DNA from: Akkermansia sp. | Lineage (GTDB): Bacteria > Verrucomicrobiota > Verrucomicrobiia > Verrucomicrobiales > Akkermansiaceae | Reading direction: 5' to 3' | Assembly: GCA_030535875.1 (NCBI GenBank) | Contig: JAUNRC010000004.1 | Span: 1 to 64,000, forward strand | Length of the DNA: 64,000 nt | In this document: one piece after another, positions 7,385-51,000 of the stretch | Numbering within the stretch: position 1 is the first letter of the stretch | Layout: each line of letters opens with the position of its first letter | Program-made: the position numbers and the translations under genes | Notes under the pieces: model-generated | Database searches by the model: none | Told to the model about the DNA's origin: nothing | Seen by the model: only the letters and a program-made list of their open reading frames with translations

Positions 7385-8373
7385 AAAAAACACTCCTCAC
7401 TCTTTCCTTTTCCGCTCTTGCCGCAATGGCGCAGGAGCCTGCCACACCACCTCCGACGCAAGGCTCTCTTTCGCCTATTCTCATGTATGTAGCCGATCGT
7501 AGCAGTGCTGACAAGGCCGCTGTTCAGGTGAATGAGCTCATTAAACAGCTTGGAACGGATAAGATTAAAGCGGACCCATACGATCTCATGCTCTTGCGGG
7601 CCGGTTCCTGCTTCGGTTCAACTGCGCTTCAACAGGCTATGGCTCCTTTTTTACCCGCAATTCAAGCGGACGAGGCGGCTGAAATAGAGCCTTATCTCGC
7701 AACTTTGAATGAAATATGGCAGGCAATGGATGATATGAGCGCCACTCTCAATGGGATTACGGACGCTCGCACAGCTCACGACGCAGCAGAAACACTCGAA
7801 AACTTTGTCCCCTTCATGAGTTCCTGTGCTGAAAAAATCTGCACTTTCTCTACCCCGGAACAAATCGCAGCCCGTCGGGAACTTAACATCGTCTACAAAG
7901 TAGGCAATCGCGTGCGAGTGGCCCGCTTTTTGCAAGCATGGGGGCACCTTATTACTCGCTCCGAAAATTATTATGACTCCGAGCGTTTGATTGAGTCTCT
8001 GCTGGGAGTGCGAGATGTCTTTGAAAACATGGGCATGCAGATAGATCCGCATGCCATTCCTGCTGTGATGAAGGTGGCCGACGAACTGAAAGGACTCATG
8101 CAGCAATGGGTCAAACAGATAACGTTGGTAAACAGCTACACAAGCGCGCAACAGGCAGCCCCCCACCTGCAGTCTGTAAAAGACAAGATAAAAACTGTCT
8201 CGATAACAGCCGGTCTTAATAAGAGCCACGAAGAAGACCTCTTCCTTTATTCCCCTGAACTTGAGTTGCTTGCTCATGTAATGGACCGTATATCCCATTA
8301 TCTGCAAGAAGAGGTCAACCCTCCGTTTTATGGGTCGGCTGACCTTCAATCCGTACTGGAACATGAGGACTGA
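7381..8373 (+). CDS. Secreted helical protein of unknown function
   Basis: A 330-residue protein starting with a signal peptide (MKKTLLTLSFSALAAMAQ, cleavage likely after AMA). The mature part looks mostly alpha-helical with no motif I recognise. Its ATG overlaps the ankyrin gene stop by four bases, so it probably works with that protein in the periplasm. A conserved-hypothetical label is all the sequence supports. Confidence 0.6.
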   Translation: MKKTLLTLSFSALAAMAQEPATPPPTQGSLSPILMYVADRSSADKAAVQVNELIKQLGTDKIKADPYDLMLLRAGSCFGSTALQQAMAPFLPAIQADEAAEIEPYLATLNEIWQAMDDMSATLNGITDARTAHDAAETLENFVPFMSSCAEKICTFSTPEQIAARRELNIVYKVGNRVRVARFLQAWGHLITRSENYYDSERLIESLLGVRDVFENMGMQIDPHAIPAVMKVADELKGLMQQWVKQITLVNSYTSAQQAAPHLQSVKDKIKTVSITAGLNKSHEEDLFLYSPELELLAHVMDRISHYLQEEVNPPFYGSADLQSVLEHED

Positions 8374-8408
8374 GTAGGTACCGCAGAGATATCTCGGGCA
8401 GTTTAGAC

Positions 8409-8437
8409 TTGCACGAACTTGCAAAACATAGTAATAT
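8409..8437 (+). promoter_or_regulatory. Promoter of cdaA
   Basis: TTGCAC at 8409-8414, 17 bases, TAATAT at 8432-8437, seven bases, then the ATG at 8445. Predicted leaderless. It rules out the in-frame ATG at 8409, which lies in the -35 box. Confidence 0.65.
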
Positions 8438-8444
8438 CTCCGCC

Positions 8445-9239
8445 ATGGATGTTCCGTATGTACTGAGAGCCGTCTTTGAGATTTTTGTGCTCTGGCTGAT
8501 TTTTTACCAGCTTTACAGAGCATTCAAAGATTCTCGAGCTGCGGCCATTCTGGCCGGCCTCGCGCTCATCATCGGTCTTGCAACAGTACTGCTTGAACTG
8601 ACACACGCAGCCGTGCTACAACAAATTGCAGGCTCTTTCCTCGGACCGGGTACATTGCTGCTCATTCTCTTTATTCTGTTCCACCCGGAATTACGAACAG
8701 CTCTTGCAAAGCTTGGTGCACACCGCGTGCTGGGTAAACTCTGGTCACGCGAACAGAATGAGGACTTCGTCTCCTGTGTGTGTGAATCCGTCTCCTTTTT
8801 GGTCAGCAAGCGCTATGGTGCCCTTATCGCCATCTGCCGCAACAATAAACTTTCAGAGTTCGTAAAAACCGGCACAGAACTCGACGCTCTCTATTCTCGC
8901 GAGCTTATCGGCACCATCTTCATGCCCAAGACCATGCTGCATGACGGAGCTGTTATCATCAATAATGAGCGAATTGTTGCAGCAGCTTGCATTCTTCCCG
9001 TATCAAACAGAGAGTTGAAAGACCGTTCTCTGGGATTGCGTCACCGCGCCGGTATTGGTTTGGCCGAAACATCCGATGCCGTTGTCATCATCGTCTCCGA
9101 AGAAACCGGCACAGTATCTCTGGTAGTCGGTAACGTCGTCCAGCGCGATATTTCGGTACAAATGCTCGGCACTCGCTTGAGTGAATTGATTTACAGCCAT
9201 GTCTCTACTGAACAAAATCCGACATCTTCTCAATCCTGA
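8445..9239 (+). CDS. cdaA: Diadenylate cyclase CdaA (DisA_N domain)
   Basis: A 264-residue inner-membrane enzyme making cyclic di-AMP from two ATP. Three membrane helices (about 7-26, 33-50, 64-80) precede the DisA_N domain, in which the catalytic DGA (167-169) and RHR (199-201) motifs are intact. This is the CdaA/DacA architecture best known from Firmicutes. In those bacteria the partners are CdaR (YbbR) and GlmM; here only a tiny CdaR-like peptide follows, overlapping by 41 bases, and glmM is not adjacent. Confidence 0.9.
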   Translation: MDVPYVLRAVFEIFVLWLIFYQLYRAFKDSRAAAILAGLALIIGLATVLLELTHAAVLQQIAGSFLGPGTLLLILFILFHPELRTALAKLGAHRVLGKLWSREQNEDFVSCVCESVSFLVSKRYGALIAICRNNKLSEFVKTGTELDALYSRELIGTIFMPKTMLHDGAVIINNERIVAAACILPVSNRELKDRSLGLRHRAGIGLAETSDAVVIIVSEETGTVSLVVGNVVQRDISVQMLGTRLSELIYSHVSTEQNPTSSQS

Positions 9240-9396
9240 GAAGCGCAGTTTCAAGTCACGCCTCGTAGAAAACTGGAAGGCTAAGCTGGTATGCCTGATA
9301 TTGGCCATACTGGTCTGGTTGTGGGTAGAAACGCGCTATGTCGAGGGGAGCAGTGAATGGGGGCTTGACGAAATCAGACTTTCCATACCCGAGTAA
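9199..9396 (+). CDS. Miniature CdaR/YbbR-like membrane peptide
   Basis: A 65-residue protein: a basic N-terminus, one membrane helix (about 28-45) preceded by NWKAK and followed by WVETRYVEG, then about 20 residues and a stop. The NW-x-K-L helix ending in W-V-E resembles the N-terminal anchor of YbbR/CdaR proteins, but none of the YbbR repeats are present. It overlaps the cdaA 3' end by 41 bases in another frame, so it is translationally linked to it. Inference: a minimal membrane partner of CdaA, or a decayed remnant. Confidence 0.65.
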   Translation: MSLLNKIRHLLNPEKRSFKSRLVENWKAKLVCLILAILVWLWVETRYVEGSSEWGLDEIRLSIPE

Positions 9397-9409
9397 ACAT
9401 TATTGCACT

Positions 9410-10045
9410 ATGCCCAATTATTTTATAGCCGGTTCGGACTGTGGTGTCGGGAAAACGTTTGTGACCTGCGCGCTGCTCAAAGATTTGCGGGCGCGAGGGC
9501 TCAATGCCATTGCTTACAAACCGGTTGCATGCGGAGAACGCTCTGAGGCGCGCAACATCCGCGAGGCCGTCGAACAACCCACACTCAGTCTGGAACTGAT
9601 TAACCCCGTTTACTTGCGAACACAGGCTGAGCCGGTGATGGCTGCCGAGCTGGAACGAACGAGCATTGAATTGGCGACTCTCGTAACCGGTTACGATAAA
9701 CTTGCCGCACAACATGATATCGTTCTCGTGGAGGGCTGCGGCGGCTGGGAGACCCCTCTTGCTCCCGGTTTAACCATGGCTGATGTAGCCGAGGCCATCG
9801 GCATGCCCGTGATTATCGTTATCAACAATCGCGAGGGGGCTGCCTCTTTGGCAAAATTGACCTTACAGGCCATTAAGGACCGGGGACTTGAGTGCAAGGG
9901 GATTGTTCTCAACCACATAGGCGAGGAATGGAGCACCGCCTCCGTGACGAATGCGCGGGTCATCAGCGAATTGACCGGATTGCCCATACTGGCAGAGCTG
10001 ATTCACGGTCAGGATTATATCGACTCGGAAGAGGTTCTCGGTTAA
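9410..10045 (+). CDS. bioD: ATP-dependent dethiobiotin synthetase
   Basis: A 211-residue P-loop enzyme converting 7,8-diaminopelargonate, CO2 and ATP to dethiobiotin. Motifs: GSDCGVGKT at residues 8-16, KPVACG near 40 (usually KPVxSG) and EGCGGWETPL near 109 (family EGAGGxxxPL). It starts at the ATG at 9410, 13 bases after the mini-CdaR gene, probably in the cdaA transcript. No other biotin gene is in the window. Confidence 0.88.
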   Translation: MPNYFIAGSDCGVGKTFVTCALLKDLRARGLNAIAYKPVACGERSEARNIREAVEQPTLSLELINPVYLRTQAEPVMAAELERTSIELATLVTGYDKLAAQHDIVLVEGCGGWETPLAPGLTMADVAEAIGMPVIIVINNREGAASLAKLTLQAIKDRGLECKGIVLNHIGEEWSTASVTNARVISELTGLPILAELIHGQDYIDSEEVLG

Positions 10046-10046
10046 T

Positions 10047-10086
10047 TATAAAAGCGGAGACTGCTCCGATAGAGCAAATCTCCGCT
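10047..10086 (-). terminator. Terminator of ankyrin gene (convergent with bioD)
   Basis: AGCGGAGA (10053-10060) pairs with TCTCCGCT (10079-10086), and inside it TGCTC pairs with GAGCA. On the minus strand the stem is followed by TTTTATAATT, so it ends the minus-strand ankyrin transcript. Confidence 0.7.
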
Positions 10087-10114
10087 GATGTCAGAATCTG
10101 CACATGCGGTACTC

Positions 10115-10579
10115 TTAACGAGCGCCTGCAGCACGCAATACGGCTTCTGTATCGCGGTGCCCTTCGTGAAGGGCTTTTCGGAGGGCCGTCTCTCCATCCT
10201 CATCCGTTGCATTGATGTCAGCACCGGCTGAAAGCAGCGCCTTCACAACTTCAGTATGACCTTCATCCGCAGCCTTCATAAGCGCGGTTTCGGCATCTTC
10301 ATCACTTTGGTTGACATTGGCACCGGCCGCAATCAGGGTTTTGACGGCATGTAAGTTACCCTTGTCCGCAGCTTTCATCAGAGCAGTCTCGGCATCTTCA
10401 TCCACAGTGTTGATATCTACACCGGAATCCAACACCTTGCGAAGTTGTTCAGGTCCGGCTACGGCTGCTCGATAGACTGATTTCATCGGTGATTGATGAT
10501 TGTCTGCAAAAGCGACGGGGGCACCGAGTGTACATGCCAGCAAAAGGGCTACAAGATATGTTGAGGTTGTGTTTTTCAT
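10115..10579 (-). CDS. Secreted ankyrin-repeat protein
   Basis: A 154-residue protein with a signal peptide (cleavage likely at AFA-D) and three ankyrin repeats so alike that the repeats are visible in the DNA: each has a DEDAETALMKAADKG-like core followed by a helix ending in AGAxxN. The repeat copies are probably recent duplications. Expected location is the periplasm, for protein binding. An upstream Shine-Dalgarno-like AAAGGAG ten bases before the ATG makes it one of the few genes here with a clear ribosome site. Confidence 0.8.
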   Translation of the reverse strand: MKNTTSTYLVALLLACTLGAPVAFADNHQSPMKSVYRAAVAGPEQLRKVLDSGVDINTVDEDAETALMKAADKGNLHAVKTLIAAGANVNQSDEDAETALMKAADEGHTEVVKALLSAGADINATDEDGETALRKALHEGHRDTEAVLRAAGAR

Positions 10580-41852: not shown

Positions 41853-42202
41853 GTACAAACGACGGCACAATCGTTCACACATGTCAGCGCTGCGGAGCCT
41901 GCTGTCGCTGGGAAGGCGATGTTTGTCTGACGGAGGATGACATTACAGCTATTGCCGCTTATCTCAATATGAGCGAAGAGGCCTTCATCGAGCAATATTG
42001 TCGATTACAGCGCAACCGCCGAGGCCTTTCCCTTATCGATGCCGACAATGGTAACGGTCCATGTTGCATGCTCACCGATGAAGGCTGCCGCATACAACCC
42101 GTCAAACCGCAACAATGTAAGGATTTCCCCTACAAATGGAACTTCCCCGGCTGGGAGCAGCGCTGCCCCGGCGCAGGAAAAACATCCTATGAGCCTACAT
42201 GA
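41849..42202 (+). CDS. YkgJ family cysteine-cluster protein
   Basis: A 117-residue protein of the CxxCxxCC family (zinc- or iron-chelating cluster): CQRCGACCRW near residue 12, then GPCCML, GCRIQ and QCKDFPY, giving about ten cysteines in the expected spacing. Function of the family is not established. Overlaps both neighbours by four bases (ATGA). Confidence 0.85.
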   Translation: MSTNDGTIVHTCQRCGACCRWEGDVCLTEDDITAIAAYLNMSEEAFIEQYCRLQRNRRGLSLIDADNGNGPCCMLTDEGCRIQPVKPQQCKDFPYKWNFPGWEQRCPGAGKTSYEPT

Positions 42203-45200
42203 TAAATAAATTAACAAGGCTTGCAGATTCTTTTAAACTCAAATTACTGCGACAATTCGTCGCTGTACGAAGTTACTTAGCCGCTATATTTCATCACTCA
42301 CCGCAACGTATAGCCGCGCGTGAAGAATCCCGCCGCGGTCACGCCGGCGTTGTCGTTGACCTTTTTGCCTCTATCATGGCAAGGGTGGATGGCATCGGCA
42401 TAGACGACATGGACACCACCATGGACATGTTGCGCTATGATTTTCCGAATGTTGAGCACAGTTGGTTAGCTGCTCGGTTCCAACACGCTTACCAAGCACG
42501 CTATACGCTGGATGACACCCTCACGCTCGCCGCAGCTCAGCGTACAGAGGAAGAGAGAATGGCACTCTCTCTCGAAATCCTTGCCATGCTCTACCGCGTA
42601 GGCGGTGACTTGACCGACCCCACTCTCTTCAACCGAGTTACAAACGGACTCAATCTTCCGGGCCTCGCGCCCCGCTTGGAGGAAGTCATTCGCACTCCGG
42701 GGTCGGAAGCTCCGCACCCCATCCAAAGCCTCTGTTTCTCAGACCGTCAGGAAGAAGGCAATATCACCCTCTCCCGAGAAGACGAAGGAATGGAGTTCCG
42801 AGCTCTGCACTGCGTACATGTTCTGCTCATCATCAACGACTCCCGCAAACCCATCACTATCGGCGGGCGTGTGCTGCACCGGGGAGATATGCAACTTCTT
42901 TCCCCCGGCCAGCATGTTGAGCTGACAGAATGGGCTCTGAGTTACAGCACCATACGCTCCCTTATTCAAAACCGTTATAGCGGTGTGAGCTATGTCGGCT
43001 ACCTGTACAGTGATGATGATGAGCTCAACATCGTACGCCAACGCCCCCGAAATGCCTTGGCTCGCGTACGCTTCAGTCTGCATGTTGAGCTGGAAATTCT
43101 CAGCAAGGAGGCAGAGTTCCTTCTTGATGGACAAGCGCTTGCACCGGGAAAGACATTCCGCACAACTTATTATACCCCTTTCTCGGTCAAAGGATTGGGC
43201 CCTTACCGCTTTGCGGAGTTGCACAATGTCGAAGCCCCCGGTCGCTCTTACCAACTCGCCCCGGATTCCCGTAAAATCCTTGTCACGAATCTCCCGTACC
43301 TCAACAGCCCGGCAGCACTCATGCTCACCCCGGGGCTTGCTCCGGCTATTGTTTTTGAAGTCAGTTATTCACGCACGGATAATACCGGTACCCTCTCCAT
43401 TATTGAAGGCTCCAACACCCTGACTGTTAACGGCAAGTTAGTAAAAGGAAAAACAACTCTCAATGACGGAGATTTAATCGGACTGAGTACCATTCAATAT
43501 CTTCGTTGCCGTTTCTCTTCCGGTGTGCTGGATGAAGAGTCATCTCTCATTCACACGCTGCGGGTACAGGGACTCACCCGAGACTTTGTACGCAGCGGAC
43601 GCGTGGTGGACAACATCGACTTTACCCTGAGAAGAGGTGAAATGGCCTGTATACTAGGCCCCAGCGGTTCCGGCAAGAGCACCTTGCTGAGCATGCTGGC
43701 CGGTCATCTGGAACCTTCATTCGGCAGCATCCATTATAACCAAAAACGCCTTTCACCCACCACCACGGATTTACGCCGTCATATAGCCTATATCCCCCGC
43801 GAAGACATTTTGGACGAGGCCATGACGGTCGGTGAGCATATTTACCACGCATCCATCGCACGCCGCCCCCTGCTTAACGAAACAGATCGCCGCCGCCGCG
43901 TTCTTTCCATCCTCAATTACGTTGGCTTGGGAGCGCTCGCCAATCGTAACGTTGGACGAGCCGGAGAGCGAACCATATCCGATGGTGAGCGTACACGCTT
44001 AAACCTTGGTCTGGACCTCACCGGCACAGCAGAAGTATTCCTCATTGACGAGCCCATCAGCGGCCTTTCTTCCGGCGATGCGGAGCGCGTCATCGACACC
44101 TTGGAGAATATGGCCGTCAGTCGTATTCTCCTTTGCACCCTGCACCGCCCGGCGCAAGTCATCCTCAATCGCTTCAAAAAAGTCATGGTCCTCAATGCTA
44201 ACGGACAAATGGCCTTCTGGGGAACTCCGGATGAAATGGTTAAATATTTCCGCAAAGCCGCTAATGAAATGGGACTGAAAGTCTCGCGCGAGGCAACGCT
44301 TGCAGGCGGCGCGGATTATGTCTTTGAAGTTCTCGAGGCTCCTTACAGCCGCCTGGGTAACAGCCAAAAACCCAAACCCGGCATGTGGCAGGAGAGGTTT
44401 GAGAATTATTACTACCGCAAAAAAGATACCCCGCAGCAGGAACATCCCGAGCGAGAGTACCGCAATATCCCTCGCATGCCTCGCCGCAGTCCTCTGGAAC
44501 TTTGGCGTCTTTTCCATCTGTGGATGACCCGCACCTTCTTGAGTCGCGTGCGCAGCCGCATGGGACTATACGCCGTTCTGATGGAAGGCCCGGTTCTTGC
44601 TCTGCTGATAGCCGGCACCTTGAGAGCAGCCAGCGATGTACCCTATACCTTCTACAAATCACTACATATCAATGAGTACCTCTTCCTGTCACTCGTGCTG
44701 GCCATGTTCTTCGGGCTGACAGACTCGGCCTGTGAAATATTACGAGACAGACCACTTCTGAGGCGCGAAAGTAACTACAAGCTCTTCATTTCAGGCTATT
44801 TGCTCTCCAAAGTTCTCGTACTCACCGGCATAGCAGCTCTCCAATGTGCCCTCTACCTCTGGGTAGGCAATGCCATTCTCGGTATTAAGCACATGTTCTG
44901 GCAACACATGGGAGTCATGACCCTGACTGCCTTCGTCGGCATTTCGCTCTCTCTGATGGTATCAGCCCTCGTACGTTCGGAGCGTACAGCTCTCAACATC
45001 GTGCCGCTGCTGCTTGTGCCGCAAATCCTACTGGCCGGAGCTCTGGTACGCTTCGAAGAAATGAATGAGTTCAGTCCGGATATAGCGGGAATCCTTCCGC
45101 CTAAAATCGAAAAACGCCTTTCCAGCCTGCGCCATCGAGTGGCATATCAGGATGAAACCACCCACAATATCACCTCCAAACCGGTACCCTTCATCGCAGA

Positions 45201-45765
45201 GTTTTGTCCCCTGCGCTACGCTTTTGAAATGATGTTCGTCACCCAAACGGAAGGTAATCTGTGGGAAATAGAAAGCGGACGAGTCAACAAACGGCGTGAT
45301 TACCTGAAAAAACACGGCGATTTAGACCAACTTCGCTTCATTCAGCGCGCGGCACTCATGCTCAATTCCACTGCACGCAACGTGGATGAGGCCGATGATA
45401 TCCTTCGTCGCGTACGCAAGGCCGCACTGCATCAGGACGAAGACTTCCTCGACCGCCTCACCGATGAACTGGAAGAACGTCCGATAAGCGACAAGGAACA
45501 ACCCGTCGAGTTCTTCTTCGCTAATCGCAAGCTCAACGTCATCAAAGAAGGCGTAAAGACAGCCCGAAAAGACGGTCGAAAAAATGAACATCAGGGCTAC
45601 TTCCTTTCCCCACGACAGGCCCAACTCTTCGGAGCCATTGATCAGGAGACCGATAAAGGCTCAGTCTCCACCATCAAGCGCAATGCCGTCTACCTACTCA
45701 TCATGGGGATTTGTCCCATTTTCGTTGCGGCCTTCCGCCTACGTTCCATCTGCCGCGGAAAATAG
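42199..45765 (+). CDS. Large ABCG-type transporter with TerB-like and FHA-like regions
   Basis: An 1188-residue fusion. Residues about 40-170 form a helical TerB-like domain; 180-460 hold beta-rich regions, the last with an FHA-like end (LTVNGKLVKG, TTLNDGDLIGL). An ABCG-type ATPase follows: Walker A GPSGSGKS near 487, signature SDGERTRL near 593 and Walker B FLIDEPISGL near 613. An ABC-2 membrane domain lies at about 800-1000, then a long soluble segment and a final helix near 1165-1182. The order resembles FHA-ABC exporters such as Rv1747, with a TerB-like addition. FHA parts usually bind phosphothreonine, but no kinase gene is nearby. Overlaps ykgJ by four bases. Confidence 0.75.
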   Translation: MINKLTRLADSFKLKLLRQFVAVRSYLAAIFHHSPQRIAAREESRRGHAGVVVDLFASIMARVDGIGIDDMDTTMDMLRYDFPNVEHSWLAARFQHAYQARYTLDDTLTLAAAQRTEEERMALSLEILAMLYRVGGDLTDPTLFNRVTNGLNLPGLAPRLEEVIRTPGSEAPHPIQSLCFSDRQEEGNITLSREDEGMEFRALHCVHVLLIINDSRKPITIGGRVLHRGDMQLLSPGQHVELTEWALSYSTIRSLIQNRYSGVSYVGYLYSDDDELNIVRQRPRNALARVRFSLHVELEILSKEAEFLLDGQALAPGKTFRTTYYTPFSVKGLGPYRFAELHNVEAPGRSYQLAPDSRKILVTNLPYLNSPAALMLTPGLAPAIVFEVSYSRTDNTGTLSIIEGSNTLTVNGKLVKGKTTLNDGDLIGLSTIQYLRCRFSSGVLDEESSLIHTLRVQGLTRDFVRSGRVVDNIDFTLRRGEMACILGPSGSGKSTLLSMLAGHLEPSFGSIHYNQKRLSPTTTDLRRHIAYIPREDILDEAMTVGEHIYHASIARRPLLNETDRRRRVLSILNYVGLGALANRNVGRAGERTISDGERTRLNLGLDLTGTAEVFLIDEPISGLSSGDAERVIDTLENMAVSRILLCTLHRPAQVILNRFKKVMVLNANGQMAFWGTPDEMVKYFRKAANEMGLKVSREATLAGGADYVFEVLEAPYSRLGNSQKPKPGMWQERFENYYYRKKDTPQQEHPEREYRNIPRMPRRSPLELWRLFHLWMTRTFLSRVRSRMGLYAVLMEGPVLALLIAGTLRAASDVPYTFYKSLHINEYLFLSLVLAMFFGLTDSACEILRDRPLLRRESNYKLFISGYLLSKVLVLTGIAALQCALYLWVGNAILGIKHMFWQHMGVMTLTAFVGISLSLMVSALVRSERTALNIVPLLLVPQILLAGALVRFEEMNEFSPDIAGILPPKIEKRLSSLRHRVAYQDETTHNITSKPVPFIAEFCPLRYAFEMMFVTQTEGNLWEIESGRVNKRRDYLKKHGDLDQLRFIQRAALMLNSTARNVDEADDILRRVRKAALHQDEDFLDRLTDELEERPISDKEQPVEFFFANRKLNVIKEGVKTARKDGRKNEHQGYFLSPRQAQLFGAIDQETDKGSVSTIKRNAVYLLIMGICPIFVAAFRLRSICRGK

Positions 45766-45835: not shown

Positions 45836-48004
45836 ATGAAAACGTCACGACACACACTCTTACTGCTATTGCTGATGACCGGGGCAGCCTTCGGGCAAAT
45901 GCCCGGCAAAACTGAGCACGTTCAGGTTGAAAAAGTGACAGTCGGCAAGGACCGCATTACGCGCAAGAGCATAGGACACATGGAGGCCATCCGCTCCGTT
46001 GCCGTCAAATCTGCGGTGGAAGGCTTTCTGCGTCCCCCGCTTTTTCAGGAAGGTGCTATCGTCCGCGAAGGCGATGTGCTCTTTGAAATTTCCCCCATTC
46101 GCTATCAGGCTGCCGTACAACAGGCCGAAGCGGCTCTCGCTGAGATAGAAGCTCAAATCACTTACGCTGAGAAAAACCACAAACGCCTTGCCCGCCTGGT
46201 CGAAGCACAGGCCACTTCCATCGAAACAACGGAAAGTGCACTCGCTCGACTCGAACAACTCAAAGCAAGCCGAGCAGGTGCCGAAGCCGATCTGGCAAAG
46301 GCCCGCAAAGACCTCGACGATTGCACCATCAAAGCCGAAATTACCGGAAGAATCGGCCGCGTTGAGTTCTCCGCGGGCAATTACATCACCAAGGGGGAGA
46401 CGCTGGTCACCATCAAGCAGATGGACCCCATCTATGTACGCTTCCCCCTCAGTCAATCCGATGTCAACGGCATCTTCCGCGGCCCCAAGGAAATAGGCAA
46501 TATCGCAGACGTACGACTTACCACCGCCAATGGTCGCCGCTACGGCCACCCGGGGACAGTCGCCATCGTCGATAACATCCTGACCTCCGGGACAGACACT
46601 TACACCCTCTGGGCAGAATTTCCGAATAAAGACAATACCCTCACCCCGCGAGGCATCGGTGCCATGCACGTCAGCCTGACGGACACTCAGCAAGTCTGCA
46701 TGGTTCCGCTCACCGCCGTGCATTACGATACGGACGGAGCCTACATCTATGTACTGAACGATGAAAATGTCGTCTCTCGTCGCGAAGTTATCGTCGGTTC
46801 CGTACAAGGGCGCCTGCAATCTGTTTACAGCGGCATCAACGAAGGAGAAGTCATTATCACAGACGGCGCGCACAAAATTCGTGTGGGAGATACGGTCGTC
46901 CCCGTCTTTGCACAGGAAGACAGCACCATCGACAACTCCGGCAACAGTATAGCCGAAGAAGTCCCCACGAAAGTCAAACTCACCCCGGTTGTAACAATGC
47001 AGGACCCCACCAAGCTGGTTTGCCAAGGTGCCCGCGTCGAGGCAATCAACCGGGTCAACCTTCGCCCGCTTGTACAGGGAGTACTTGCTGAGCCGCACTT
47101 CACCGAAGGCGACCGGGTCAAACAGGGCGATATCCTCTTCAATATTGACCCCACTCGCTATCAAGCCGTCGTCGATGCCCGCAAAGCCTCCATCGCCCAG
47201 CTCACCGTGCAACTCAACGATGCCAAGCGCAAGTACGAACGCCAGCAAGCTCTGGCCGCGACCGATGCCACCAGTAAGGACGACCTCGAGAGCGCTCGCG
47301 CAACCTACAATGAGCTCATCGCCAAAAAGAAAAAGGCCGAGGCTGCCCTCATCATTGCAGAGGATGACCTCTCGCGCTGTACCATGCGCGCCCCGATTTC
47401 CGGCCGCATCGGGCGAGTCCTCTTCTCAAAGGGTAATTACATATCTGACATGAAGCAACCGCTGGCCAGCCTTGTGCAGATCAGCCCCATCTATGTCAGA
47501 TTCTCCCTGAGCGAAAACGCCATCCTTTCCAACTACGGAACAGATGATAAGCTCCGGGCGAACTCAGATATCACACTCGTTACGGCAAACGGCATCACCC
47601 ATAGCGAAAAAGGTGAAGTTCACTTCAGTGACAATATCATCCAAACCGCGACCGACACGCAGAACTTCTGGGCTGTCTTCCGCAATGAAAACGGCGAACT
47701 GCAACCCGGTGCTGTCGTCACCATTCACGTCACCCGCAAGTCCGATAAACTCGTCCCCGCCGTTGCAGCCGAGGCCATCCTGACCGACACCAGCGGCCGC
47801 TACGTCTACGCCATGCGCCACAATCGAGCCGTACAGGTACGCGTGCTTTGCGGCACACCCGATGAAAACGGCCTCACTCCCATCTTTGCCGGCCTGAAAG
47901 AAGGCGATCAGTGCATTACCTCCCCTCTGGCAGATATTGAAGACGGCACGCCGGTCACACCTGCGGCACAAGAGGAAGCCCCCTCAACCGATAATAACAA
48001 GTAA
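45836..48004 (+). CDS. Tandem-duplicated RND periplasmic adaptor protein
   Basis: A 722-residue exported protein (signal peptide ending near AFG-Q) containing two complete HlyD/AcrA-type adaptors in a row. Both halves have a lipoyl domain (FQEGAIVREGDVLFEI and FTEGDRVKQGDILFNI), an ISPIRYQA or IDPTRYQA hairpin entry, a coiled-coil hairpin, a second lipoyl half (AEITGRIGRVEFSAGNYI and APISGRIGRVLFSKGNYI), then PIYVRF-S and beta-barrel domains. The join is near residue 375-385. Normal adaptors are about 370-400 residues. It is followed after 12 bases by the RND pump gene. Confidence 0.9.
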   Translation: MKTSRHTLLLLLLMTGAAFGQMPGKTEHVQVEKVTVGKDRITRKSIGHMEAIRSVAVKSAVEGFLRPPLFQEGAIVREGDVLFEISPIRYQAAVQQAEAALAEIEAQITYAEKNHKRLARLVEAQATSIETTESALARLEQLKASRAGAEADLAKARKDLDDCTIKAEITGRIGRVEFSAGNYITKGETLVTIKQMDPIYVRFPLSQSDVNGIFRGPKEIGNIADVRLTTANGRRYGHPGTVAIVDNILTSGTDTYTLWAEFPNKDNTLTPRGIGAMHVSLTDTQQVCMVPLTAVHYDTDGAYIYVLNDENVVSRREVIVGSVQGRLQSVYSGINEGEVIITDGAHKIRVGDTVVPVFAQEDSTIDNSGNSIAEEVPTKVKLTPVVTMQDPTKLVCQGARVEAINRVNLRPLVQGVLAEPHFTEGDRVKQGDILFNIDPTRYQAVVDARKASIAQLTVQLNDAKRKYERQQALAATDATSKDDLESARATYNELIAKKKKAEAALIIAEDDLSRCTMRAPISGRIGRVLFSKGNYISDMKQPLASLVQISPIYVRFSLSENAILSNYGTDDKLRANSDITLVTANGITHSEKGEVHFSDNIIQTATDTQNFWAVFRNENGELQPGAVVTIHVTRKSDKLVPAVAAEAILTDTSGRYVYAMRHNRAVQVRVLCGTPDENGLTPIFAGLKEGDQCITSPLADIEDGTPVTPAAQEEAPSTDNNK

Positions 48005-48016
48005 CACCCATTTCCC

Positions 48017-51000
48017 ATGTTCTCTGAATTTTTCATTCACCGTCCCAAGTTCGCCTTCGTCGTCTCCATCGTGATGATGTTGGCCGGCTTCCTGTGCCTG
48101 AGTATGATGCCCGTGTCAGAGTACCCGGAAGTATCGCCCCCCACCATCTCGGTACGCATGAACTATGCCGGAGCCAGTGCGGAAGAACTGGCACAGGTTG
48201 TAGCAGCCCCCGTTGAGGAAAACCTCATCGGCATGGATGACTTACTCTATTTCTATTCCTCCTGCACCAACGACGGCTCCTATTCACTGACCCTCATCTT
48301 CGAGACCGGAACCAATGACGACATGGCCATGGTGAACGTCTCCAACGCCATTAAACAGGTTGAAAGCAAACTGCCGGAAGACATAAAGAAAACCGGCTAC
48401 AACGTCCGCAAGCGTTCCAGCGACATGCTCTGCTTCCTCAACTTCATGTGCGATGAGAACAAGATGAGCATTCTGGAACTCACCAACTGGTTGCGCATGA
48501 ATGTCAAAGACCCGCTCACTCAGGTGGACGGCGTGTCCGTGGCGGACATCATGCACAGCCGCAACTACTCCATGCGTGTGTGGATGAACACCACCCGCAT
48601 GAATGCTCTCAACATCACCCCGGCTGATGTCTCCTCCGCCATCTCCGCCCAGAATATTCAGGCAGCGGCCGGCTCCGTCGGCTCCCAGGACGAAGGCGCT
48701 TACGCTACATACAAGGTCACCGCAACGGGACGACTCAAAACCGTTGAGGAGTTCGGCAACATCATCGTCAAACGAGGCGAAGCCGGACATGTCACCAAGC
48801 TCAAAGACATTGCCACCATCGAGCTCGGCGCAGAGAACAACTCCGGTTACAGCCGCCTGAACGGTAAAAACGCCGTCGGCATGATGGTGCAGCGCAATAA
48901 CGATGCCAATGCGCTGGCTACCGTCGAAGCCCTCAAAGAAAAAATGAAGGAAATCGAACCCATGTTACCCGATGGCGTGACATGGACGATGGGCTATGAC
49001 CCCACCCGAGCCATTGAGGCCACCATGGAAGAAATCGGGCTCACCCTGCTGATAGCCCTCTTCCTTGTGGTGCTGGTAACTTATATTTTCCTGCAGGACT
49101 GGCGTGCCACTCTTATTCCGGCTCTGGCCATTCCCGTATCGCTGTTGGGAGCCTTCACGTTCATGTATGTCATGGGTTACAGCATTAACGTGCTGACCAT
49201 GTTCGGTCTTATTCTGGTAATCGGTTCACTGGTGGACGATGCCATTGTGGTTGTCGAGAACGTCATGCGCATTATTCAGGAAGAGAATCTCAGCCCGAAG
49301 GAGGCTACAATTAAGAGCATGAAGCAGATTACCGGAGCCATCATCGCCACCACTCTGGTCACACTTGCCGTATATGTTCCCATCGCCTTCTACGGCGGCA
49401 TGGTAGGCGTTATCTACACACAGTTCTCCTTCACCATGTGTGTAGCCCTCTGCATCTCCACCTTCAATGCCCTGACTCTCTCCCCGGCACTCTGCGCCCT
49501 CATCCTCCGTCCGGCCGGAGTCAAACAGACCAAGCTGTCCATCTATGCATTCAAACCCTTCAACTACGTCATGGAGAAGTGCCGCGGCTTCTACCTGTGG
49601 GGGGCCGGTATTCTCGTACGCAACGCATGGCTGACCATTCTTCTGCTGGCACTTGTCATCTACGGCAACTACATCTACTACGCCGGAGCTCCTCAATGGT
49701 GGAACAATATCTTCCGGCCCGCCCCCGAGCAAGGAGCCGCAGCCATGATGGCAGCTAAGGCCAAACAACAGCAAAAGAGCCAATATGACTTCCTGAGCCT
49801 TCTCGCCCCCGAAATGCTCAACAGCTCCTTCATACCCACCGAAGATAAAGGCGCCGTATTCTGCATCGTCAATCTGGAAGGCTCCGCTACCGCCAAACAG
49901 AGAACAGATAAGGTCATGCGCCAAATTGAAGAGCGCATCTCCAAGTTCGACGGCATTCAACTCGTAACATCAACGAGCGGCTTCAGCTTCGCCTCCGGTT
50001 CCGGTGAAGGCAACGGCATGGTCATCGTCATGCTCAAGCCCTGGAGCGAGCGTACCACCCCCGACCTGCATGCCTCAGCCATGGCTAAGAAAATAAGCGA
50101 GGCCTGTAAGGACATCCCCGAGGCCTCCGTTATGGCCACCACACCTCCGGCTATTCAGGGCCTCGGTCTCTACGGCGGCGTATCGATGGTACTGGAAGGT
50201 CGCGGCAATGCCACCCCCAAAGACTTGGGTGACATGGTGAAGGAAGTCCGTAACCGCTTGCAACAGCACAGCGACCTCATCATGATGGTTCGCTCGGAGT
50301 ACAATGCCGAAACTCCGCAAATCCGCCTCGAAATCAACCGAGAGAAAGCGCAGGCCCTTAACGTACCCGTCAAGACCATCTTCACTACACTTCAGAGTGT
50401 GATGGCCTCCTCCTACGTCAATGACTTCACACTCAACGGCTTTAACTTCAAGGTAAAAATTCAGGGCGATGTGAAGGATCGTCGTACGGCCGATGACATT
50501 CTCAACCAAATGGTACGCAACGAAAAGGGTGAAATGGTACCGCTCTCGGCAGTCTGCACCCTGTCCTACCGCTTGGGTCCGTCCAACTACGCTCGCTTCA
50601 ATCAGTACATGAGTGCTGATGTCACCGTCATGCCGCAGGCGGGCGTAGGCTCCGGTCAGGTCATGAAGCTGATCGAAGACACCATCGCTCAGATAAACAA
50701 GGAAGAGCGCGCGAAAGGGCTCGACCGCCAATGGGCGGTTGAATGGAAAGACCTCTCCTATCAGGAGCGTCAGAACAGCGGCAAAATCGGCTTACTCATC
50801 GGTCTGGCCATGTTGTTTGCCTACCTCTTCCTCGTTGCCCAGTACGAAAGCTGGACGACACCGGTACCCGTCATGCTCTCTGTCAGCGTAGCCACACTCG
50901 GTGCCTTCATGGGAGCACAGCTCTGCGGGCTCTCACTGTCCATCTATGTACAGTTGGGCATTCTCATGCTCATCGGTCTGTCTGCTAAGAATGCCATTCT

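Follow-up and report, generated by a model that had tools for sequence, protein, structure and literature searches.

Two diverged RND pump adaptors in one open reading frame of Akkermansia

The connector protein of an RND pump is normally used as six separate copies. Structures place six adaptors on each RND trimer in two unequal places, and most pumps fill both with the same protein, so that the role of each place cannot be separated genetically. In AcrAB-TolC, the six adaptors form a trimer built from two protomers that differ in conformation, and protomer I of AcrA contacts AcrB through its membrane-proximal (MP) domain, at PC1, far more than protomer II does (PMC5404916, in the portions available). 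The accessible parts of a second paper (PMC6975555) describe the AcrA beta-barrel as the domain gripping the beta-hairpins of AcrB, report that the adaptor residues used for binding are essentially the same in the two ring positions, and give for the substitution G363F, in binding box 9 of AcrA, an effect comparable to the loss of all four adaptors.

Three described systems come closest to the arrangement reported here. TriA and TriB of the TriABC-OpmH pump of Pseudomonas aeruginosa, encoded by separate genes and 36% identical (PMC4338810, in part), are diverged and non-equivalent adaptors that work with a single RND permease. DSY0927 of Desulfitobacterium hafniense is a natural chain of two different membrane fusion proteins, but it is described as belonging to a Gram-positive organism, as serving an ABC-type transporter and as having no coiled coil in its N-terminal half (PMC4338810 and PMC4446572, both in part). 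Finally, an engineered tandem of two AcrA copies complements an acrA deletion (Xu et al. 2011, as cited in the available part of PMC4446572). Fused adaptors are thus not new in principle, given DSY0927, the artificial AcrA-AcrA chain and, as two genes, TriA/TriB. In the open-access literature that we searched, outside which much of the literature lies, no report of a natural fused RND-pump adaptor in a Gram-negative organism was found. The PDB chain 6vej_P, of 695 aa and bearing two adaptor names, we take to be an engineered TriA-TriB fusion.

The window analysed is a stretch of 64,000 nucleotides from an Akkermansia genome (G000) that measures 2.08 Mb and is 88% complete. An earlier note on this DNA had described one of its genes, S1 in what follows, as an in-frame tandem duplication of an RND adaptor with clearly diverged halves, and both descriptions are borne out. 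The frame is uninterrupted from ATG to stop over exactly the interval given in Table 1; TIGR01730 (RND_mfp) matches it in two stretches, with a total of 445.5 bits against a cut-off of 94.9 that both halves reach; two adaptor folds are predicted; and the halves are 36% identical over about 320 residues (blastp), the same value as between TriA and TriB in the source cited above. The N-terminus carries the sole signal-peptide-like hydrophobic segment of the protein, there being none in the linker, and is probably cleaved by signal peptidase I. Across 27 distinct fused sequences the linker measures 18–22 residues.

Table 1. Features of the fused adaptor locus, and of the second fused adaptor; coordinates refer to the window unless a contig is named.
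Feature	Position	Strand	Basis
Fused RND periplasmic adaptor (S1), 722 aa	45836..48004	+	One open frame; TIGR01730 twice; AlphaFold2 (AF2): two adaptor folds
Signal-peptide region, without lipobox cysteine	45836..45895	+	Hydrophobic LLLLLLMTGAAFG; pLDDT <50 for residues 1-25
N-terminal adaptor half, residues 21-358	45896..46909	+	Profile, blastp, alignment to AcrA, AF2
N-half helical hairpin with RLARLVEAQATS (RLS-type tip motif)	46097..46318	+	AF2 helices 88-123 and 129-161; motif scan
N-half membrane-proximal docking motif DGAHKIR	46862..46882	+	Aligns with AcrA G363, K366 and R368, which are binding box 9 (PMC6975555, in part)
Linker, 19 residues (359-377), hydrophilic, without signal peptide	46910..46966	+	AF2, sequence comparison
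C-terminal adaptor half, residues 378-722	46967..48001	+	Profile, blastp, alignment to AcrA, AF2
C-half helical hairpin with RQQALAATDATS (RLS-type tip motif)	47153..47374	+	AF2 helices 440-475 and 481-513; motif scan
C-half box-9 position SPLADIED, G/K/R all lost	47921..47944	+	Alignment to AcrA
AcrB-like RND permease, 1098 aa	48017..51313	+	PF00873 958 bits; TIGR00915 above cut-off
Permease insertion, 43 aa, past the position matching AcrB 557	49685..49813	+	Alignment of 13 fused- and 7 single-adaptor permeases and AcrB
Second in-frame double RND adaptor (S2), 991 aa	G000:C75:21475-24447		RND permease directly downstream

Like AcrA, MexA and MexC (TIGR01730), each half of S1 has all the domains in the usual order, an AcrA-like fold and an RLS-type motif at the tip of its hairpin, and, as in those systems, an RND permease adjoins. 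S1 differs from them in carrying two diverged copies per chain, in a C-half without box 9, and in an N-terminus without a lipobox cysteine. It shares with DSY0927 the two adaptors in one natural polypeptide; its partner, however, is an RND permease and both of its halves have a hairpin. In contrast to the engineered AcrA tandem, its copies are natural and diverged. The gene arrangement fits a TriAB-type pump, in that the two diverged adaptors may both serve the one permease, but it has one open frame instead of two genes.

The AF2 model of the full chain (mean pLDDT 79, pTM 0.66, from 10 aligned sequences) contains two complete adaptor folds, with hairpins at residues 88-161 and 440-513, separated by a low-confidence stretch at 361-373. 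In each half a lipoyl domain is predicted around the two-helix hairpin, together with a beta-barrel and an MP domain, the names being taken from the alignment with AcrA. The N-half superposes on the AcrA structure with a Z of 16.8 and an rmsd of 5.8 for 332 aligned residues, and the domain assignment of the C-half rests on sequence and on the model of the full chain. The RLS-type tip motif was found in 14 of 15 N-halves and in all 15 C-halves. In the model the two hairpins pack side by side, matching the paired hairpins of outer-membrane factors; residues 87-515 fit CusC with a Z of 16.4, a kind of score that helical bundles reach easily, and an rmsd of 2.1 Å over 153 residues. Given the pTM, the packing of the halves on each other is uncertain. 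The Foldseek and VIA matches cover chiefly one half, and 6vej_P, with just 98 residues aligned in VIA, says nothing on the geometry of two halves.

The two halves part company in the MP domain. Among sites conserved in 10 single adaptors of the genus, the N-half keeps 20 of 34 in the MP domain and the C-half 9 of 34 (p=0.014); the corresponding figures are 23/41 and 25/41 for the barrel, and 38/67 and 39/67 for hairpin and lipoyl domain together. When 11 single adaptors from the phylum are added, the MP sites kept are 16 of 21 versus 8 of 21 (p=0.028), and the other domains show no difference. At the positions of AcrA G363, K366 and R368, all 23 N-halves have G, K and R, and none of the 23 C-halves has any of the three. 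The N-halves, for their part, are altered at AcrA positions 220, 224, 290, 293 and 294, which lie within or adjacent to boxes 2 and 5, and the changes at 290, 293 and 294 are consistent and confined to N-halves. The near-identical rows L041, L010, L102 and L086 were left out of the box-9 and site counts, as five identical sequences had been earlier. Since the box-9 and N-half changes are mostly stem changes of related sequences, each site amounts to about one event. A site-by-site test of reciprocity, in which the C-half loses MP sites and the N-half barrel sites, gave p=0.035 with 15 single adaptors and 0.072 with 8 thinned ones; because this test is weak when taken alone, we place the weight on the asymmetry of the MP domain. 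By these sequence comparisons, the halves of S1 are not equivalent. Which half would sit where is a separate matter: as the same residues are reported to bind in both ring positions (PMC6975555, in part), the loss of box 9 alone names no position.

Changes are seen in the permease as well. Its gene begins 12 bases past the adaptor stop, and each of the 12 further fused loci searched likewise has a permease adjoining the adaptor. An insertion of 37–51 aa past the residue that aligns with AcrB 557, a region that we take to be the end of TM7 and the start of PC1, is present in 13 of 13 permeases beside S1 fused adaptors. It occurs in none of the seven single-adaptor orthologues, and in the alignment it is absent also from AcrB and from the S2 permease.

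We propose that an in-frame duplication within the genus doubled a single adaptor gene belonging to a multidrug-type RND pump of Akkermansia, the second copy lacking a signal peptide, and that the two copies then diverged. Three fused chains would form the usual six-hairpin ring, giving a 3:3:3 pump whose three components, permease, adaptor and outer-membrane channel, would all be internally duplicated. The N-half, with its docking motif kept, would most likely take the protomer-I place, where the MP domain contacts permease PC1 extensively; this place suits a half that retains the motif and whose permease partner is altered where PC1 has its base. The C-half, which lost the motif yet kept barrel, lipoyl domain and hairpin, would most likely take the protomer-II place, which a lost MP motif beside a kept barrel fits. 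We regard as probable this reading of a one-chain adaptor heterodimer in a 3:3:3 pump, with the two halves in the places that we infer for them. The fusion would then fix which copy sits where, and such fixed placement gains support because the docking motif is lost in the C-half only and the insertion is found only with S1 fused adaptors. Counting against the proposal are the equal conservation of the S1 barrel overall in both halves, the lack of the insertion in S2 permeases, and the want of an outer-membrane factor gene in the operon as far as seen. If the proposal is true, the two adaptor positions would be genetically addressable in nature: a large group of gut Akkermansia ties two diverged copies together and leaves each free to specialise, across many species and in two pump systems, and the fixed differences between the halves would point to residues that matter at only one of the two places.

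It is also conceivable, though rather unlikely, that the fusion secures only stoichiometry, secretion and loyalty to one pump, the halves being interchangeable and their divergence mostly drift or compensation. The linker, free in sequence and held at 18–22 residues in length, would suit such a role, as would the equal conservation of barrel, lipoyl domain and hairpin; engineered AcrA tandem fusions do function (PMC4446572, in part), and the genome's other adaptors (C36, C6 and C75) could compete. With interchangeable halves, however, the loss of G363, K366 and R368 in 23 of 23 C-halves and in no N-half would be unexpected after a genus-wide radiation, and so would the changes at AcrA 290, 293 and 294 in N-halves only. 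Somewhat less probable still is that the C-half is a spacer or sealing element held off the permease, binding only neighbouring adaptors and the outer-membrane channel. The MP domain is the least conserved part of the C-half and its docking motif is gone: mean identity in MP_N is 42% among C-halves versus 61% among N-halves, and in MP_C 55% versus 65%. Against a spacer stands the C-half barrel, the domain that in AcrA grips the permease (PMC6975555, in part), which keeps 25 of 41 conserved sites and thus no fewer than its N-half counterpart.

In two quick maximum-likelihood trees, made without bootstrap, the N-halves form one clade and the C-halves another, with support of 100 each, and both adjoin the single adaptors of the genus. 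When single adaptors from other families of the phylum are included, one group with support 92 unites both sets of halves with the single adaptors of genomes G132 and G500 (contig C10); the two S1 branches and the single branches join at one fork without branching order. The separate clades argue against gene conversion between the halves. Read from these trees, the duplication would most simply be one event within the genus, starting from a pump with one adaptor such as that of G132. The earlier note had the fusion replace two genes, as in TriAB; this is apt as an analogy, but the history differs, since the closest relatives are single-adaptor pumps, so that one gene became one double gene. 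Nei-Gojobori dN/dS in the four closest pairs, the dS of other pairs being high or saturated, is 0.04–0.06 for the N-half and 0.05–0.11 for the C-half; judged by these ratios, both halves are under purifying selection.

A match across both S1 halves was obtained in 58 of 76 Akkermansia genomes and a single adaptor alone in 17, the remaining genome, G535, having no S1 match at E<=1e-60; the 58 include G526, which matches residues 134-708 only, and G533, which shows one TAG and one TAA. Sheep, goat, water buffalo and roe deer are among the sources of the named relatives with the fusion, all of them Akkermansia MAGs, and nine of ten named relative loci have an open frame of 716–810 aa. The exception, L039 from a water-buffalo MAG (the same gene as L094, genome G523), has a single TAG within the C-half, at 2552-2557, which may reflect a pseudogene or a sequencing error. 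In L008-L011 the TAA noted inside is the terminal stop, since the fused frame of 717–769 aa is open. Halves encoded by two adjacent genes, which with a stop lost here would have pointed to another origin, were looked for and found in none of the genomes of the family (145), the genus (76) or the phylum (387, of which 24 belong to the genus). Elsewhere in the phylum, none of 363 non-genus genomes spans both halves at E<=1e-45, with 79 of the 363 matching; this search scored the two best candidates per genome, and rarer or very distant fusions may escape it. Among plasmid records 532 matched, and each of the 25 listed spans about 1 kb, as a lone adaptor hit by both halves would. In G152, an open frame of 1445 aa was considered as a fusion candidate and rejected, having proved to be a 371-aa single adaptor. 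In L043 (goat MAG, 7998-10430), the C-half of the fused adaptor holds a piece resembling an RND permease (residues 689-775, matching ACR_tran 181-262), which may be a real insertion or an assembly chimera. That the fusion itself is a MAG or assembly artefact, or a recently lost stop codon between two genes, is highly improbable: the named fused genomes are all MAGs and L039 has its TAG, but the identical in-frame join in independent MAGs excludes an assembly artefact, in line with the earlier note, which had ruled out an assembly duplication, and the 58 genomes, the 27 distinct full-length sequences with one ancestral join, and the absence of an adjacent two-gene version from the genomes searched all argue the other way.

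A second in-frame double RND adaptor, S2 (Table 1; L045 7476-10451, L051), lies in the same genome as the window. Its halves are 42–43% identical to each other and 23–31% identical to the S1 halves; the N-terminus is, by eye, of lipoprotein type (LITAC), the linker has about 100 residues, and the C-half contains a long repeat-like stretch within its membrane-proximal part. S2 was matched in 53 of the 76 genus genomes, namely G535 and 52 of the 58 with the S1 fusion, but none of the 17 whose S1 adaptor is single; some of these matches are partial, or fall in two pieces within one open frame. The N- and C-halves of S2 form clades apart from S1 (support 100 and 98), which makes S2 a fusion that arose independently within that same group of genomes. 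The reciprocity test on S2 gave p=0.49, and the S2 rows ended before box 9. A general tie between the permease insertion and adaptor fusion was considered and rejected, as none of five fused-S2 permeases carries the insertion; these five differ in length from five permeases of single type only by 7 residues near AcrB 640. The wider reading, that a clade of Akkermansia twice independently replaced six identical adaptors by three one-chain heterodimers and that in S1 the N-half would be protomer I with a co-evolved permease insertion and the C-half protomer II, we hold at about an even chance.

Several observations concern the neighbourhood. In most relatives the insertion of the S1 permease begins GxPxWWN. 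Neither the S1 operon nor the stretch beside the permease showed an outer-membrane factor gene; those of the window's genome lie on contigs C6, C58 and C69. Behind one single-adaptor S1 pump (L112, genome G500) there is a gene at 1471-2862 for a 463-aa protein that, by eye, resembles an outer-membrane factor; other loci differ, and G500 carries a second S1-type pump (L113). An RND permease at G000:C85:20231-23299 lies on a contig without an adaptor match when the window protein is the query. A MarR-type regulator stands upstream of single-adaptor S1 pumps in five of six loci (L046, L047, L111, L112 and L113) and in none of the 13 fused S1 loci searched; regulation may have changed along with the S1 fusion. 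Directly upstream of the adaptor in the window, at 42199-45765, is a gene for a 1188-aa protein in which some 460 residues precede an ABC ATPase that is joined to an ABC-2 membrane protein. The same gene lies upstream of the adaptor in 5 of the 12 other fused loci, the closest ones.
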